Made by a program: the position numbers and the translations under genes. Under the pieces are notes generated by a model. The model was not told the DNA's origin, searched no databases, and was given only the letters and a program-made list of their open reading frames with translations. From Sphingomonadaceae bacterium 3R27E2-A (GTDB lineage: Bacteria > Pseudomonadota > Alphaproteobacteria > Sphingomonadales > Sphingomonadaceae): a stretch of 64,000 bases of DNA. Of the stretch, positions 12,573 through 26,082 are shown one piece after another; position 1 is the stretch's first letter, and each line of letters starts with the position of its first letter. The stretch lies in assembly GCA_005503165.1 (NCBI GenBank), contig SCNT01000022.1, forward strand, positions 1 through 64,000, written 5' to 3'.

Positions 12573-13538
12573 TCAGATCGATTCGCCGGACAATCGCTGG
12601 CAGATCATGTCGAGCTGGTCGAGCGAGGCGAATTTGAGCGTCAGCGCGCCCTTGCCCCCGCCGGCGTACTGGATCGCGACCCCGATGCCGAGCAGTTCGG
12701 ACAAATGGCGCTCGACCGCGACGATGTCGGGATCGCGCCCGCCGTCGATGCTCTTATACTCGATCGGCGCCTTGCGCCCGCCGCCCTTCTCCGCGCGGAC
12801 CAGCGCCTCGACCGCGCGCACCGACAGGCCTTCCTTGACCACCTTGCGCGCGATCGCCTCGGCCCCGTCGGCGCCGATTAGCGCGCGCGCATGCCCCATC
12901 GCCAGCGACCCGTCGCCGACCAGCGCCTGGACGCTGGCGGGCAGGTCGAGCAGCCGCATCAGATTCGCGACATGGCTGCGCGACTTGCCGACCAGCTTGG
13001 CGAGCGCCTCCTGGCTGTGCCCGAAATCCTCGATCAGCTTGCGATAGGCGCCCGCCTCTTCGATCGCGTTGAGGTCCTGCCGCTGGATATTCTCGACCAG
13101 CGCGATCTCATAGGTCGCCGCATCGTCGAGCGCGCGCACCAGCGCGGGGATCGCGTGCAGGCCGGCCCGCTGCGCCGCGCGCCAGCGCCGCTCGCCCGCG
13201 ACGAGCTGATAGCCATCGCCATCCGGCGCCGCACGCACGATGATCGGCTGGAGCAGTCCCCTTGCGGCAATCGAATCGGCGAGCTCGGCGATCGCGCCTT
13301 CGTCGAAATGGCGCCGCGGCTGGCCCGGCAGCGGGCGAATCGCCCCCACCGGCACATGCTGCACCGCGTCGCCCGAAGCCGGCGCCGATACCTTCGCCGC
13401 GCCGCCCGGGCTCGCGAGCACCGGCGCCTCGACCGCCGCATCGCCGAACAGCGCGTTCAGCCCGCGCCCCAGCCCCGACGGCCGCTTTTTCGCGGGGGCT
13501 GCCGGAGAAACGCCAGTTTCATCTTTATTATCAGCCAT
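12573..13538 (-). CDS. parB: Chromosome partitioning protein ParB
   Basis: ParB binds parS sites near the origin and spreads as a CTP-dependent clamp to build the segregation complex moved by ParA. The 321-residue protein has a basic N-terminal tail (KKRPSGLGRGLNALFGD), the box I/II region containing GERRWRAAQRAG (the CTP-binding GERRxRA motif), a central helix-turn-helix region (SQEALAKLVGKSRSHVANLMRLL) and a C-terminal dimerisation domain. It begins one base after the parA stop, so the two are cotranscribed. Three parS sites lie within 4.1 kb upstream of its start. It is complete and of normal length. Confidence 0.97.
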   Translation of the reverse strand: MADNKDETGVSPAAPAKKRPSGLGRGLNALFGDAAVEAPVLASPGGAAKVSAPASGDAVQHVPVGAIRPLPGQPRRHFDEGAIAELADSIAARGLLQPIIVRAAPDGDGYQLVAGERRWRAAQRAGLHAIPALVRALDDAATYEIALVENIQRQDLNAIEEAGAYRKLIEDFGHSQEALAKLVGKSRSHVANLMRLLDLPASVQALVGDGSLAMGHARALIGADGAEAIARKVVKEGLSVRAVEALVRAEKGGGRKAPIEYKSIDGGRDPDIVAVERHLSELLGIGVAIQYAGGGKGALTLKFASLDQLDMICQRLSGESI

Positions 13539-14324
13539 TTATGCAGCCTTACGCACATTCGGGAGCCGATCGATCAGTTCGCGCGCCAGCGCGATATAGG
13601 CCATCGATCCGGGGCAGCGATGATCGTAGATCAGCGCCGGCAGCCCATGGCTCGGCGCTTCGGACAGCCGGACGTTGCGCGGGATCACCGTCTCGAACAC
13701 CACCGGGCCCAGCACCTCGCGGACATCGTCCGACACCTGGTCGGTCAGCCGGTTGCGCCGGTCGAACATGGTGAGCGCGACCCCCAGGATCGACAACTTC
13801 TGGTTGAAGCGCTCGCGCACGCGCTCGACCGTGGTGAGCAACTGGCTGAGCCCCTCGAGCGCGAAAAATTCACACTGCAGCGGCACGATCAGCGATTCGG
13901 CGGCGATGAGCGCGTTCAGGGTCAGCATGCCCAGCGACGGCGGACAGTCGATCAGGCAGATGTCCCACTGCCCCGCCTCGGCGTCCGACAGCGCCTGCTG
14001 CAGCCGCTGCAGCCGGTCCTGAAACTCGATCAGCTCGATCTCGGCGCCCGACAGGTCGACCGTCGCCGCGACGATGTCGAGCCGCGGCACCGCGGTCGGG
14101 ATCGCGCATTCGGCGACCGTCGCGTCGCCGCGCAACAATTCATAACTCGACAGCTCGCGCTGCGCCTGTTTGATCCCGAGCCCGGTCGAGGCATTGCCCT
14201 GCGGATCGAGGTCGATGATCAGCGTGCGCCAGCCCGTCGCCGCGAGCGCGGTGGCCAGGTTGATCGCGGTCGTCGTCTTGCCGACCCCGCCCTTCTGGTT
14301 CGCCACGGCGATGCGGATCATCAT
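13539..14324 (-). CDS. parA: Chromosome partitioning ATPase ParA
   Basis: ParA is a deviant Walker ATPase that binds DNA non-specifically and pulls ParB-parS complexes during chromosome segregation. The 261-residue product starts MMIRIAVANQKGGVGKTTTA, which contains the signature deviant Walker A motif KGGVGKTT; the DCPPSLG Walker B-type block follows. The open frame continues upstream, but the ATG at 14324 (or 14321) sits immediately before the conserved N terminus and overlaps the rsmG stop as ATGA, so translation is coupled to rsmG. Confidence 0.97.
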   Translation of the reverse strand: MMIRIAVANQKGGVGKTTTAINLATALAATGWRTLIIDLDPQGNASTGLGIKQAQRELSSYELLRGDATVAECAIPTAVPRLDIVAATVDLSGAEIELIEFQDRLQRLQQALSDAEAGQWDICLIDCPPSLGMLTLNALIAAESLIVPLQCEFFALEGLSQLLTTVERVRERFNQKLSILGVALTMFDRRNRLTDQVSDDVREVLGPVVFETVIPRNVRLSEAPSHGLPALIYDHRCPGSMAYIALARELIDRLPNVRKAA

Positions 14325-14977
14325 TTTCCTCGCTGTTTTGTCACGATTTTTCCGATTCCGACCAAAATCTGGCTGTCGGCGTCGGTGCGGCTCTGTTCCA
14401 CGTGAAACATTGTCTGCCACGGCGGCGGCAGCAACGCCAGTTCCTTAACCGCGTTTCGCCCTTTTGGCAGCAGCCAGCGCGTCGATTCGGTGGAAAAACG
14501 CGCGGATAAGTCGATCAGCTTGTCAAGCGGCGCAAAGGCGCGCGCGCTGATCGTCCCCGCGCGCCGCGTTTCGACGCGCTCGAGCGGCGCCTCGGCGACT
14601 TCGACATGGCCGAGCTCCAGCTCATCCGCGACGGCGCGCAGAAACTCGCACCGCCGCTTGCGCGATTCGACGAGCAGCATCGGCCGCCCGGACAGGATCG
14701 CGACGACCAGCCCCGGCAACCCCGGCCCGCTACCCAGATCGACCCAAAAGCCCTCGCCGTCGGGATCGAGCGCAAGCAGCTGCGCGCTATCGGCGATGTG
14801 CCGCACCCAAAGCGTCGGGATCGTCGACGCCGCGATCAGATTCTGCCGCGCATTCTCGGCCACCAACATCGCCGCAAAACGCTCGAGCCGCACCCATTGC
14901 GCGGCGGTCGGCGCAAACGCCTGCTCCAGCCAGTCGCGCGCAGCGCCTTCATTGTCCAATAGCCCGCCGTCCGCCAC
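14321..14977 (-). CDS. rsmG: 16S rRNA (guanine527-N7)-methyltransferase
   Basis: RsmG (GidB) methylates N7 of G527 in 16S rRNA using S-adenosylmethionine. The 218-residue protein has the SAM-binding motif VDLGSGPGLPGLVVA and the LLVESRKRRCEFL block. The start is GTG with a GGAAGG-type ribosome site. The 3' end of the gene contains a parS site (14394-14409), so ParB binds inside this coding sequence. The order mnmG, rsmG, parA, parB is conserved in many bacteria, although here an extra gene separates mnmG from rsmG. Confidence 0.95.
   Translation of the reverse strand: MADGGLLDNEGAARDWLEQAFAPTAAQWVRLERFAAMLVAENARQNLIAASTIPTLWVRHIADSAQLLALDPDGEGFWVDLGSGPGLPGLVVAILSGRPMLLVESRKRRCEFLRAVADELELGHVEVAEAPLERVETRRAGTISARAFAPLDKLIDLSARFSTESTRWLLPKGRNAVKELALLPPPWQTMFHVEQSRTDADSQILVGIGKIVTKQRGK
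14394..14409. other. parS centromere site 1
   Basis: TGTTCCACGTGAAACA matches the bacterial parS consensus (TGTTTCACGTGAAACA) with one difference. It lies inside the 3' end of rsmG, just upstream of parA. Confidence 0.93.
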
Positions 14978-15657: not shown

Positions 15658-17529
15658 CTAAGCCGCCCGCCGCTTGCTGTGCACCAATATTGCGGTCAGC
15701 GCCGCCGGGGTCACGCCATCGATGCGCCCCGCCTGTCCCAGCGTCTCGGGCCGCGCCCTGGTCAGCCGTTCGACCATCTCGCGCGACAGCCCGCCGATCG
15801 CGGCATAATCGAGCGCCGGGTCGAGCAATATCGCTTCGTTCGCCGCCAGCGAGCGCAACTCGGCCTCCTGCCGCGCGATATAGGGCGCATAATGCGCATC
15901 CTCGGCCAGCTCGGCGAGAATGGTCGCGTCGATCGCATCCAGCTCGGGCGCGAGCAAAGCCAGCTCGACCATAGTGACTTCGGGAAAGCGCAACAGGTCA
16001 ATCCGCCGCCGCGCTGCGCCATCGCCGGGCAGAGGGAGCCCGATCGCCGTATAATCCCCGGTCTTGACCGGCGCCTCGAGCAACGCCGCCGCCCGCGCCC
16101 GCTCGGCCATGCGCGCTTCGAACAGCGCCGCGGTCGCCGGCCGCACCAGCCGCTGCGCGATGCCCTTGGGCGTCAGCCGCGTCGCCGCATTGTCAGCCCG
16201 CAGCCGGAGCCGATATTCGGCGCGCGCGGTGAGCATGCGGTACGGCTCGGTCACCCCTTGCAACACCAGGTCGTCGACCATCACCCCGATATAGGATATG
16301 GAGCGGTCGAGGATCAGCGGCTCGCGCCCCTGCACCGCGAGCGCCGCATTGGCCCCCGCGACCAGCCCCTGCGCCGCCGCTTCCTCATAACCGGTGGTGC
16401 CGTTGATCTGCCCGGCGCAATAAAGTCCCCCGATCGCGCGCACCTGCAACGTCCGGTCGAGCGCGCGCGGGTCGATATGGTCATATTCGACGGCATAGCC
16501 CGGAACGGTCATCTCGACCGCCTCGAGCCCTTCCATGGTGCGCAGCATCGCGAGTTGCACATCGGCGGGGAGCGAGGTGGAAATGCCGTTCGGGTAGACG
16601 AGCTGCGAATCGAGCCCCTCGGGCTCCAGAAACACCTGATGCCCGTCGCGGTCCGCGAAGCGGTGGATCTTGTCCTCGATCGACGGGCAGTAACGCGGCC
16701 CCGCCGCGGCGATCGCCCCGGTGAACAAGGGCGAGCGGTGGAGATTCGCCGCGATTATCGCGTGGCTCTCGGCGTTGGTGCGCGTGATAGCGCAGAAAAT
16801 CTGCGGCACCGTCCGGCGATTGTTCCACGTGGAACAGGTCCAGTTCGCGCCCTCGGCGCTGTCCGACGGCTGTTCGGCCAGCCGCGCCCAGTCGATCGTC
16901 CGTCCGTCGAGCCGCGGCGGCGTTCCGGTCTTGAGCCGCGCCATCGGCAGGTCGGCACTGCGGAGCTGCTGCGCGAGCCGATGCGCCCCGGCTTCGCCGA
17001 TACGCCCACCCTCCATCCGCTCCTCGCCGCGGAACAGCCGCCCGCCAAGGAAGGTCCCCGTCGCGAGCACGACTGCCCCGGCCGCCAGCCTTGTCCCGTC
17101 ACCCAGTTCGAGACCCGCGACACGCGAACCATCCTCGGACAGGATCAGCGCCGCCGCCTCGCCCTCAACAACGGTGATCGCCTCTTCGGCGGCGAGCAGA
17201 TGCTGGATCGCCCGCCGATAGAGCTTGCGGTCGGCCTGGACACGCGGCCCCTGCACCGCTGCGCCCTTCGACGCGTTGAGCATGCGGTAATGAATCGCCG
17301 CCGCGTCGGCGGCGCGCGCCATCCAGCCGTCGAGCGCATCGACCTCGCGCATCAGATGCCCCTTGCCGAGACCCCCGATCGCCGGGTTGCACGACATCGT
17401 CCCGATCAGCGCGGGATCGAAACTGACGAGCGCGACCCGTGCGCCGAGCCGAGCCGCAGCGGCGGCGGCCTCGGTCCCGGCGTGCCCACCGCCGACGACG
17501 ATGACATCATATATTGTGCTGCTGTGCAT
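15658..17529 (-). CDS. mnmG: tRNA uridine 5-carboxymethylaminomethyl modification enzyme MnmG
   Basis: MnmG (GidA) works with MnmE to place the carboxymethylaminomethyl group on the wobble uridine of certain tRNAs, using FAD and methylene-tetrahydrofolate. The 623-residue product starts with an FAD-binding fold, [16 protein letters not shown], and shows the family blocks [14 protein letters not shown] and [17 protein letters not shown] chose the ATG at 17529 because family members begin a few residues before the FAD motif; an in-frame ATG at 17556 is possible. The coding sequence contains a perfect parS palindrome at 16821-16836, and another parS lies 52 bp upstream of the start. Confidence 0.97.
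16821..16836. other. parS centromere site 2
   Basis: TGTTCCACGTGGAACA is a perfect 16-bp palindrome and a canonical alphaproteobacterial parS. It lies inside mnmG, where it encodes part of the protein as well. Confidence 0.95.
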
Positions 17530-17580: not shown

Positions 17581-17596
17581 TGTTCCACGTGAAACG
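17581..17596. other. parS centromere site 3
   Basis: TGTTCCACGTGAAACG matches parS apart from the last base and one arm position. It is intergenic, just upstream of mnmG, about 7.4 kb from the DnaA boxes. Confidence 0.88.
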
Positions 17597-17644: not shown

Positions 17645-17932
17645 CTAGTGTGCGAACTGCGCGTTCAACCGGCCCTTGAGCCAAGTCGAAACGTCTTCGC
17701 CGTAGCCCGTCCAAGCGGCTTCACCCGAAAGACGAGCAACAATAAGTTTGTCGTTTGCATCCAAACAGGGTGTGAGACCGTCACGCACCTGAACGGCAGT
17801 CTGCGTGGTTTCAATAAACCACACCGATCCCTGCGCATGCCAGTGAACGGGATATGACTTGAGCTTCTTCGTCAAACAGGCATAATTCTGACCCTGTTTG
17901 TGAAGGTCGTACGTAACTACATATACTGACAT
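17645..17932 (-). CDS. Small Cas2/SinR-like protein
   Basis: This is a 95-residue protein that begins MSVYVVTYDLHKQGQNY, a beta strand ending in an Asp as in Cas2 and VapD-like ferredoxin-fold proteins, followed by a helix and strands (GSVWFIETTQTAVQVRD, DKLIVARL). Proteins like this have been labelled SinR family or hypothetical; the Cas2-like fold is inferred from the pattern. There is no CRISPR array or other cas gene in the window. The gene stands alone between mnmG and mnmE, with lower GC content than either neighbour, and has an AAAGGGCGAG ribosome site. A toxin-like or RNA-binding role is possible but not shown. Confidence 0.75.
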   Translation of the reverse strand: MSVYVVTYDLHKQGQNYACLTKKLKSYPVHWHAQGSVWFIETTQTAVQVRDGLTPCLDANDKLIVARLSGEAAWTGYGEDVSTWLKGRLNAQFAH

Positions 17933-18219
17933 GACTCGCCCTTTCTATGGCAAGCTAGAAAAAAGCCGAGCTTGACAGCGAGTCGACGGAGATTCATTAT
18001 CCCCGAGTCAATACGACTACGATTTCCGCACTCGGCTTGAGAACGCGGAAGCCGGAATCAGAAGCCGTCGTGGGTGGCCGCCCGCGGCGGCTTCTTCGAT
18101 TCAGACGTCATCGTTAAGGCTGAATTAAGCGGTTGGCGGAGTCAAGGCGATTCTTCATGTAGGGGGTCGGCTAGGACAGACCACCTACATATCGTGGCTA
18201 CCGCTTTTGTTCTCATACA
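17933..18219. other. Low-GC spacer between the Cas2-like gene and mnmE
   Basis: The 287 bp hold no convincing open frame. AAAGCCGAG near 17964 and CTCGGCTTG near 18033 are complementary and about 70 bp apart, and GAAGCCGTCG (18061) can pair with CGGCGGCTTC (18085), giving a hairpin without a long T run. The spacer may carry the promoter of the Cas2-like gene and a structured 3' end of mnmE mRNA. Confidence 0.35.
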
Positions 18220-23845: not shown

Positions 23846-24868
23846 CTATCCCCGCACGCGTTTGATCAATCGCTCGACATGCGCAATCGGCGTGTCGGGC
23901 ACGATGCCATGGCCGAGATTGAAAATATGGGGACGCGAGGGGAAGGCTGCAAGGATGCGGTCGATCGCATTATCGAGCGCTTCGCCCCCCGCGACGAGCG
24001 CGAGCGGGTCGAGATTGCCCTGCACCGGCAGATGCGCCGGCAGATTGGCATCGGCCCAGGCCGGATCGACCGTCTCGTCGAGCCCGATCGCGTCGGCGCC
24101 GGCCTCCTTTGCATAGGCGGGCAGCTTGCTCCCCGCGCCCTTCGGAAAGCCGATCACCGGCGTGTCGGGATGCAGGGCCTTCAGCCGGCGGATCACCTCG
24201 ACGTTGGGCGCGATCACCCAGCGTTCGAACTGCGCGGGGCTGAGGCTGCCCGCCCAGCTGTCGAACAATTGCACCGCCTCGACGCCCTGTTCGATCTGGC
24301 CCGACAAATAGGTGACGCTGAGGTCGATGATCGCGTCGACGATCGCCTGGAAGCCTTGGGGATCGCCGAACGCCATACGCCGCGCGGCGGCCTGGTCCTT
24401 CGACCCCTGCCCCGCCACCATATAGGTCGCAACGGTCCAGGGGCTCCCCGCAAAGCCGAGGAAGGTCGTCTCGGGGGGCAGCGCCGCGGCGACGCGCGCG
24501 ACGGTCGCATAGACGGGATCGAGCCGCTGGTGCGCCGCCTCGAGCGAGGCGAGCGCGCTGTCGACCAGCGGCGGCGCGAGCCGCGGCCCCTCGCCTGCCT
24601 CGAACCACAGATGCTGGCCGAGCGCGTGCGGGACGACGAGGATGTCCGAAAAGAGGATCGAGCCGTCGAAGCCGAAGCGCCGGATCGGCTGCAGCGTCAC
24701 TTCGGCCGCGGCCTCGGGATCGTAGCAGAGCTCGAGGAAGCCACCCTTGGTCTCCCGCAGCGCGCGATATTCGGGCAGGTACCGCCCCGCCTGGCGCATC
24801 AGCCACAGCGGCGGGCGATCCTGCCGCACCCCGCGCAGCGTCGCGAGCAAGGCTTTGTGTGACGCCAT
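23846..24868 (-). CDS. hemE: Uroporphyrinogen decarboxylase
   Basis: HemE removes four carboxyl groups from uroporphyrinogen III to give coproporphyrinogen III. The 340-residue protein has the signature RPPLWLMRQAGRYLPEYR near the N terminus and the FLGFAGSPWTVATYM block. The ATG at 24868 has an AGAGGGA ribosome site; the frame upstream is open but lies in the origin region. In Caulobacter and many other alphaproteobacteria hemE borders the chromosomal origin, and here its start faces a cluster of DnaA boxes. Confidence 0.97.
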   Translation of the reverse strand: MASHKALLATLRGVRQDRPPLWLMRQAGRYLPEYRALRETKGGFLELCYDPEAAAEVTLQPIRRFGFDGSILFSDILVVPHALGQHLWFEAGEGPRLAPPLVDSALASLEAAHQRLDPVYATVARVAAALPPETTFLGFAGSPWTVATYMVAGQGSKDQAAARRMAFGDPQGFQAIVDAIIDLSVTYLSGQIEQGVEAVQLFDSWAGSLSPAQFERWVIAPNVEVIRRLKALHPDTPVIGFPKGAGSKLPAYAKEAGADAIGLDETVDPAWADANLPAHLPVQGNLDPLALVAGGEALDNAIDRILAAFPSRPHIFNLGHGIVPDTPIAHVERLIKRVRG

Positions 24869-25269
24869 CGGTGGTCCCTCTTTCTCTTCCATAATAATAT
24901 ATAAGAATATGGTGGTGGTTTGTTGGCGGGCGAAGAAGGCGGCTTTAGGCAGCGCCGCCGCCTTTGCCAACAGCTTGACTCGGCCAGGCTCCTTCTTCGA
25001 CGCGGAGTCGGACAGGCCCGTCCCCACTATTCACAGCCTGTGGATAAGAAACCCATGCTGTGGACAAGCCTTGGGGCGGAATCGACGCGGCCGGGGATGA
25101 ATACACCGTCCCGATTCTACCCCTGCGCTTGTCCGGAAACTTATCCACAGATGGAGTTTGGGCATCGTATCCTCCCCACCGCTTTGCCGCAGCGAGGATC
25201 AAACGGTCGCAACCCCAACCCCTACCTTCCCCGCTTGCCTTTCCCCGCGCCTTTGCCCCAAGTGCCATC
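24869..25269. other. oriC: Chromosomal replication origin (oriC), hemE-ppsR gap
   Basis: This 401-bp gap holds TTATCCACA DnaA boxes at 25039-25047 (minus strand, perfect) and 25141-25149 (plus strand, perfect), near matches at 25059-25067 (TTGTCCACA, minus) and 25027-25035 (CTATTCACA), and an AT-rich stretch at 24889-24910 that could be the unwinding element. Four GANTC sites (24977, 25005, 25079 and 25113) suggest control by a CcrM-type methylase. Genes to the left point left and genes to the right point right. The flanking order hemE, ori, ppsR, maf, aroE, coaE, dnaQ matches the Caulobacter origin as I recall it. I see no CtrA site of the TTAA-N7-TTAA type. Confidence 0.88.
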
Positions 25270-26082
25270 ATGGGCCGGCTCCACTTGCACCTCATATCCG
25301 ATTCCACGGGCGAAACGCTCGAAAATATCGCCAAGGCCGCGATCGCGCAGTTCGACGATGTCGAGGTGGTGCGCCACTTCTGGCCGATGGTGCGCTCGGA
25401 ATCGCATCTCGACCGCATCATGGCCGAGGTCGAGGCCAGCCCCGGCATGATCCTCTTCACCCTCGTCAACGGCGATCTGCGCGTCAGCCTCGAGCGGCGC
25501 GCCCGCGCGCGCGACCTGCCGCTCGTCGCGGCGCTCGACGCGGTCACCGACGCGCTGTCGCAGATGCTCGGCCAGGAGGCGAAGGCGCGGCCGGGACGTC
25601 AGCACCAGCTCGACGCCGCTTATTTCGCGCGCGTCGAGGCGATCCAGTTCACCGTCGCGCACGACGACGGCATCGGCTGGGAAAATTGGGAACAGGCCGA
25701 CATCGTGCTCGCGGGCGTGTCGCGCACCTCGAAGACCCCGACGAGCATCTATCTCGCCAACCGCGGCTTCAAGACCGCGAATATCCCGATCGTCCCCGAA
25801 TCGCCGCCGCCGGACGCGCTCTACAATCTCAAAAAGCCGCTCGTCGTCGGGCTGACCACGGGGCTCGACCGGCTGGTGCAGGTGCGCCGCAACCGGCTGC
25901 TCGCGCTCAACCAGGCGCCCGAAACGCCTTATGTGGACGACGAACGGGTCAAGGCCGAGCTGGCTTTTGCCCGCCGGATGTTCGCCGACAATGGCTGGCC
26001 GGTGATCGACGTGACGCGCCGCTCGATCGAGGAAACCGCCGCGGCGGTGATCAAGCTGGTCGAGGACCGTAGCGCGGCATGA
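25270..26082 (+). CDS. ppsR: Pyruvate, phosphate dikinase regulatory protein (kinase/pyrophosphorylase)
   Basis: PPSR/PDRP-family proteins (DUF299) switch phosphoenolpyruvate synthase or pyruvate phosphate dikinase off and on by ADP-dependent phosphorylation and phosphate-dependent dephosphorylation of a Thr. The 270-residue protein starts GRLHLHLISDSTGETL and contains the P-loop-like block GVSRTSKTPTSIYLANRG. The ATG at 25270 is chosen because the conserved N terminus begins immediately after it; the upstream in-frame start would fall among the DnaA boxes. It overlaps maf by 4 bp. Confidence 0.93.
   Translation: MGRLHLHLISDSTGETLENIAKAAIAQFDDVEVVRHFWPMVRSESHLDRIMAEVEASPGMILFTLVNGDLRVSLERRARARDLPLVAALDAVTDALSQMLGQEAKARPGRQHQLDAAYFARVEAIQFTVAHDDGIGWENWEQADIVLAGVSRTSKTPTSIYLANRGFKTANIPIVPESPPPDALYNLKKPLVVGLTTGLDRLVQVRRNRLLALNQAPETPYVDDERVKAELAFARRMFADNGWPVIDVTRRSIEETAAAVIKLVEDRSAA

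Follow-up and report, generated by a model that had tools for sequence, protein, structure and literature searches.

The window is the whole stretch of 64,000 nucleotides analysed here. It comes from a draft genome (4,511,661 bases in 92 contigs) that probably belongs to the genus Sphingopyxis, judging by the closest genus-labelled relatives of its PpsR protein. Within the window, the divergent genes hemE and ppsR are separated by an intergenic gap that is 41% AT. Profile searches identified, on the left flank, rho, a HemJ-like gene (scoring under the cut-off of its family) and hemE; ppsR, a Maf-like gene (under cut-off), aroE and coaE make up the right flank. Further left are gidA and gidB, with parA and parB beyond them. 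Rfam models, applied at gathering thresholds, matched nowhere in the 64-kb window. Features are listed below by position.

12573..13538, minus strand: parB (ParB_N, HTH_ParB and ParB_C domains)
13539..14420, minus strand: parA (AAA_31/CbiA)
14394..14409: parS-like site with one mismatch to the consensus
16821..16836: parS-like site inside gidA, with two mismatches to the consensus; TGTTCCACGTGGAACA, a perfect palindrome
17581..17596: parS-like site with two mismatches to the consensus
23846..24868, minus strand: hemE, uroporphyrinogen decarboxylase (TIGR01464, 391 bits, over cut-off)
24869..25269: proposed oriC, the 401 bp intergenic gap of the divergent hemE/ppsR pair, bounded by the starts of both genes
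24881..24910: AT-rich stretch, proposed duplex unwinding element (DUE), the least stable 30-mer of the window
24977..24981: GANTC (CcrM target) site, present in 38/38 aligned genus gaps
25005..25009: GANTC site, 38/38 aligned genus gaps
25027..25035, plus strand: weak DnaA box CTATTCACA, two mismatches; an ATTCACA core is kept there in most of the 38 genus gaps
25039..25047, minus strand: DnaA box 1, perfect TTATCCACA; perfect in 34/38 aligned genus gaps
25059..25067, minus strand: DnaA box 2, TTGTCCACA, one mismatch, 20 bp from box 1; perfect in 22/38
25079..25083: GANTC site, 38/38 aligned genus gaps
25141..25149, plus strand: DnaA box 3, perfect TTATCCACA; perfect in 31/38, at 100–102 bp from box 1
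25270..26082, plus strand: ppsR, PpsR/DUF299 family regulator, COG1806 (NF003742, 324 bits, over cut-off; PF03618)

An earlier note on this DNA had proposed that the gap is a chromosomal origin, partly because it seemed the sole place at which genes turn from leftward to rightward orientation. The latter does not hold. At least three further gene pairs, each with a Pfam match for both members, diverge in the same way: trmE and dienelactone hydrolase (near 19.9 kb), HSP20 and histidine phosphatase (near 34.2 kb), and HAD hydrolase and amidohydrolase (near 41.0 kb). The note had also placed origin, centromere and ribosomal cluster within about 45 kb, and this arrangement is borne out. Briefly, parAB and three parS-like 16-mers (from 14394, 16821 and 17581) lie 7–12 kb from the gap. 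Only two places in the genome are within one mismatch of GTTTCACGTGAAAC; these are the sites at 14394 and 17581. Open reading frames from about 43.7 kb, named by their first residues alone, are presumably ribosomal-protein and elongation-factor genes.

The DnaA boxes are as the note described them: two perfect matches and two near matches, the latter being the one-mismatch TTGTCCACA and the two-mismatch CTATTCACA. The whole genome contains 6 perfect boxes, compared with 13 occurrences of a reversed control pattern. Two of the six sit in the gap, 93 bp apart. By simple arithmetic, a pair this close among six random places in 4.5 Mb would arise in less than one in a thousand tries. Neither two perfect boxes nor three boxes within one mismatch appeared in Markov simulations of the gap (0/3000 for each). 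The four remaining perfect boxes, on contigs C5, C22, C33 and C44, are isolated. No second perfect box was found in the 12–16 kb around each, and the box on C33 has one near match about 4 kb away. Counted over the entire window, boxes within one mismatch are unremarkable (5 versus 2.4 expected, with 11/100 shuffles reaching 5). Hence, it is the clustering of boxes that counts. The window count speaks for a chance origin of the matches; we give that explanation virtually no weight, since it is at odds with the clustering, with the two perfect matches and with a spacing kept across the genus. The conserved layout described next contradicts it directly.

PF03618, the PpsR family, was detected in 79/80 genus genomes and 114/119 family genomes. 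In each of the 76 distinct genomes whose locus was retrieved with both genes, 42 of the genus and 34 from the wider family, hemE and ppsR diverge across a gap of 281–488 bp. The 42 genus gaps were drawn from the 79 genus genomes with PF03618. A layout of three boxes, two on the minus strand (1 and 2) and one on the plus strand (3), is common to 38/42 genus gaps. The other four (L047, L048, L079 and L080) have boxes at other places without the fixed layout, and were left out of the 38-row alignment. Box counts are biased upward by wider gaps L034–L038 (5/34) and genus loci L071–L078, which were chosen for an exact box pair; L079 and L080 were chosen for its absence. Among the 38 aligned gaps there are 27 imperfect boxes, 23 of which deviate solely in the first three letters.

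Outside the genus, strong boxes are sparse. In an order-wide sample, the exact paired-box pattern was present in 20/296 genomes (13/16 in the genus and 7/280 outside). The 29 wider-family gaps not selected by box content include 1 with a perfect box, 27 with at least one box within one mismatch and 2 without any. Hence, strong boxes characterise this genus plus a few others, whereas the position between hemE and ppsR is shared. Two relatives, G023 and G107, lack PF03618 yet match the paired-box pattern. In G023 (locus L089, 9879–10137) a dense cluster of DnaA boxes, several of them perfect, lies within about 80 bp of hemE. This suggests an origin that remains beside hemE.

The AT-rich stretch noticed earlier is real. 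Ranked with nearest-neighbour energies, the 30-mer at 24881 (−29.0 kcal/mol) is the least stable of the 64-kb window, and the next is at −33.6. The least stable 30-mer starts 10–17 bp from the hemE start in 38/38 genus gaps and 0–32 bp from it in 34/34 wider gaps. We also considered relatives' loci of 20 kb, using the 36 that reach 20,000 bases among 48 (L090–L137). A few of these carry no genus label, and many of the genomes are shared with the genus-gap set, so that the two sets are not independent. In 36/36, the hemE/ppsR gap contains the 30-mer of lowest stability in the entire locus. The same 36/36 have at least one perfect DnaA box in that gap.

The stretch at 24881–24910 may also contain the hemE promoter. 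The boxes lie where the promoters of two divergent genes would be, with the AT-rich stretch at the place expected for that of hemE. The boxes could then couple transcription of hemE or ppsR to DnaA, or titrate DnaA, with the origin at another, unrecognised place. We consider this extremely unlikely. It is opposed by the isolation of the genome's four other perfect boxes, by parAB and parS-like sites near the gap, and by a layout like that of a described alphaproteobacterial origin.

GC skew was one of the checks proposed in the earlier note. The window's own skew is uninformative; it is negative on either side of the gap, with no flip at the gap. Skew was also computed for two relatives, from 40 stretches (about 20% of the chromosome) in G360 and 20 stretches (9%) in G403. 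For G360, the detrended cumulative skew has its minimum at 3.613 Mb (3.606–3.614 Mb with one stretch left out). This is about 24 kb away from the gap; the distance to dnaA is about 340 kb. In a contiguous 140 kb of G360, the skew minimum is at 3,614,802 and the boxes are at 3,638,318, with dnaA at the contig start. The thinly sampled G403 is indecisive: its detrended minimum is at 3.829 Mb, about 60 kb from hemE at 3.769 Mb, but omission of one stretch moves it to as far as 4.10 Mb and, once, to 0.14 Mb. Without detrending, the sums for G360 and G403 are lowest close to the start of the contig (39 kb and 0), which is where summation begins. As far as it went, this check does not overturn the reading in the earlier note. 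Skew favours this region without singling out the gap itself. A search for dif with a proteobacterial consensus, allowing at most 3 mismatches, matched 1/18 genomes, too few to compare ori–dif symmetry.

The same data bear on dnaA, which marks the origin in many bacteria. With replication starting there, the gap would be no more than a promoter region of hemE and ppsR under DnaA regulation. In some closed relatives the numbering begins at dnaA, which lies in the first 2 kb of G186, G360, G362, G375, G376 and G403. In G360, skew is near zero around dnaA, and the two distances from dnaA to the skew maximum are about as even as those from hemE, or more so. However, detrended skew at dnaA clearly exceeds its minimum value. 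In the genome studied here, dnaA is on a separate contig (C18) without a box cluster; its 20-kb surroundings contain a single near-match box. The earlier note had named a dnaA locus outside the window as an example of a competing place, and that locus does not overturn its reading. Furthermore, dnaA is 0.26–1.07 Mb from ppsR in 15/17 relatives (worked out by hand from positions, with circularity assumed). A published report also states that Sphingomonadales do not keep dnaA near ori (PMC8116508). An origin at dnaA, with its box-poor surroundings and the detrended skew minimum far away, is therefore very unlikely.

Signals that might control an origin were sought in the gaps. CtrA sites were searched as TTAA-N7-TTAA, which we take to be the consensus. 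No full site was found in the genus gaps (0/42) or the wider gaps (0/34). Single TTAA half-sites occur in 20/42 genus gaps and 18/34 wider gaps, and none is in the window's gap. A strict IHF consensus, liable to miss degenerate sites, matched 1/42 genus gaps and 0/34 wider gaps; the window's gap was not the match.

GANTC is abundant. The 42 genus gaps contain 192 GANTC sites, compared with 54.5 expected from mononucleotide shuffles. At 12.8 per kb, they are denser than in the window, where the figure is 1.9 per kb. Among 256 xyNzw patterns, GA.TC ranks first, both by total and by invariant columns. The GANTC-richest 400-bp stretch overlaps the hemE/ppsR gap, alone or tied, in 33/36 relatives' loci. 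At 25005–25010, GAGTCG forms an invariant island in an otherwise divergent stretch (38/38 genus gaps), which suggests a protein or methylation site. No report of invariant GANTC sites at a Sphingopyxis origin turned up in the literature searched; the main text of PMC4741004 is silent on them.

GANTC-rich stretches also occur elsewhere. Window positions 17933–18219, a 287 bp intergenic region between a small open reading frame (17645–17932, minus strand) and trmE, hold eight GANTC sites and are denser than the origin gap. In five relatives' loci (L093, L096, L098, L110 and L123), a 400-bp stretch at about 15.0–15.4 kb, some 5 kb past the ppsR start, is at least as GANTC-rich as the origin gap.

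The genome encodes GcrA and a protein with a RAMA domain, the latter CcrM-type by domain. Origin timing could conceivably be read via CcrM methylation of the three fixed GANTC sites, and not via CtrA, because the GANTC columns are invariant (38/38), a consensus CtrA site is missing and both proteins are encoded. We think this improbable on present evidence and offer it tentatively. Several GANTC motifs are known at the Caulobacter origin, and CcrM is reported there not to be required for initiation control (PMC3973325). A further report states that CtrA influences replication in Sphingomonas melonis, and that intergenic DNA in general is enriched for GANTC (PMC8116508). These reports on CcrM, CtrA and intergenic GANTC argue against timing by methylation, as does the denser cluster elsewhere in the window.

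The best interpretation of our data is that the gap at 24869–25269 is very probably oriC, the replication origin on the chromosome of a Sphingopyxis species, as the earlier note had proposed. We observe two of the genome's six perfect boxes here, a layout conserved in 38/42 genus gaps, an unstable 30-mer placed alike in 36/36 loci, a neighbourhood with parAB and parS-like sites, and a nearby skew minimum in one relative, G360. The published Sphingopyxis oriC agrees with this placement. Pulling the other way are the same-sign skew of the window, the 24 kb offset of the G360 minimum, the instability of the G403 estimate, the few perfect boxes in the wider family, an AT-rich stretch that may be the hemE promoter, and undetrended minima near the contig start.

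Initiation at such an origin might proceed as follows. DnaA would bind box 1, the adjoining weak box and box 2, plus box 3 on the other side. The resulting complex would open DNA at the AT-rich stretch, the probable place of opening, next to hemE. Helicase loading would come next, with forks leaving both ways. ParB, bound to the parS-like sites 7–11 kb away, would then separate the new origins.

An origin at hemE is already known for Sphingopyxis, and the finding, very probably correct, is ordinary. What it provides is oriC coordinates for this draft genome and, from 38 genomes, a footprint of the Sphingopyxis origin that consists of three boxes with fixed spacing, three invariant GANTC sites and, by hemE, an unstable element. 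With this footprint, it becomes simple to ask by experiment whether sphingomonads time their replication by methylation or by CtrA.

The closest described system is Sphingopyxis granuli TFA, for which oriC was placed close to hemE (BMC Genomics 2016, PMC4741004). That work, which follows Brassinga et al. 2001, describes conserved DnaA boxes and a putative DUE in Sphingopyxis strains, and proposes that the listed origin of S. alaskensis should move to the hemE region. The gap resembles the oriC of S. granuli TFA and other Sphingopyxis in genus, hemE-side place, DnaA boxes and putative DUE. It differs in that S. granuli TFA is another species, and GANTC, CtrA and parS are absent from the main text of PMC4741004. 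The flank order claimed in the earlier note also stands, since hemE and ppsR flank the gap as they do the origins of Caulobacter and Rickettsia, both located between hemE and COG1806 (PMC1914354). Like the gap, Cori of Caulobacter crescentus has DnaA boxes and an AT-rich region between hemE and COG1806 (ppsR) (PMC1914354). Unlike the genus gaps, where the full CtrA site (0/42) and the strict IHF site (1/42) are missing or rare, Cori carries five sites for CtrA and one for IHF (PMC1914354); neither of these Caulobacter-type traits was found in the window's gap. The Rickettsia prowazekii origin shares the position between hemE and COG1806 but is 82.55% AT (PMC1914354), compared with 41% here. 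In common with the hemE-type oriC of alphaproteobacteria, the gap combines a place between hemE and COG1806/ppsR, a cluster of DnaA boxes, an AT-rich stretch for putative unwinding and nearby parAB/parS.
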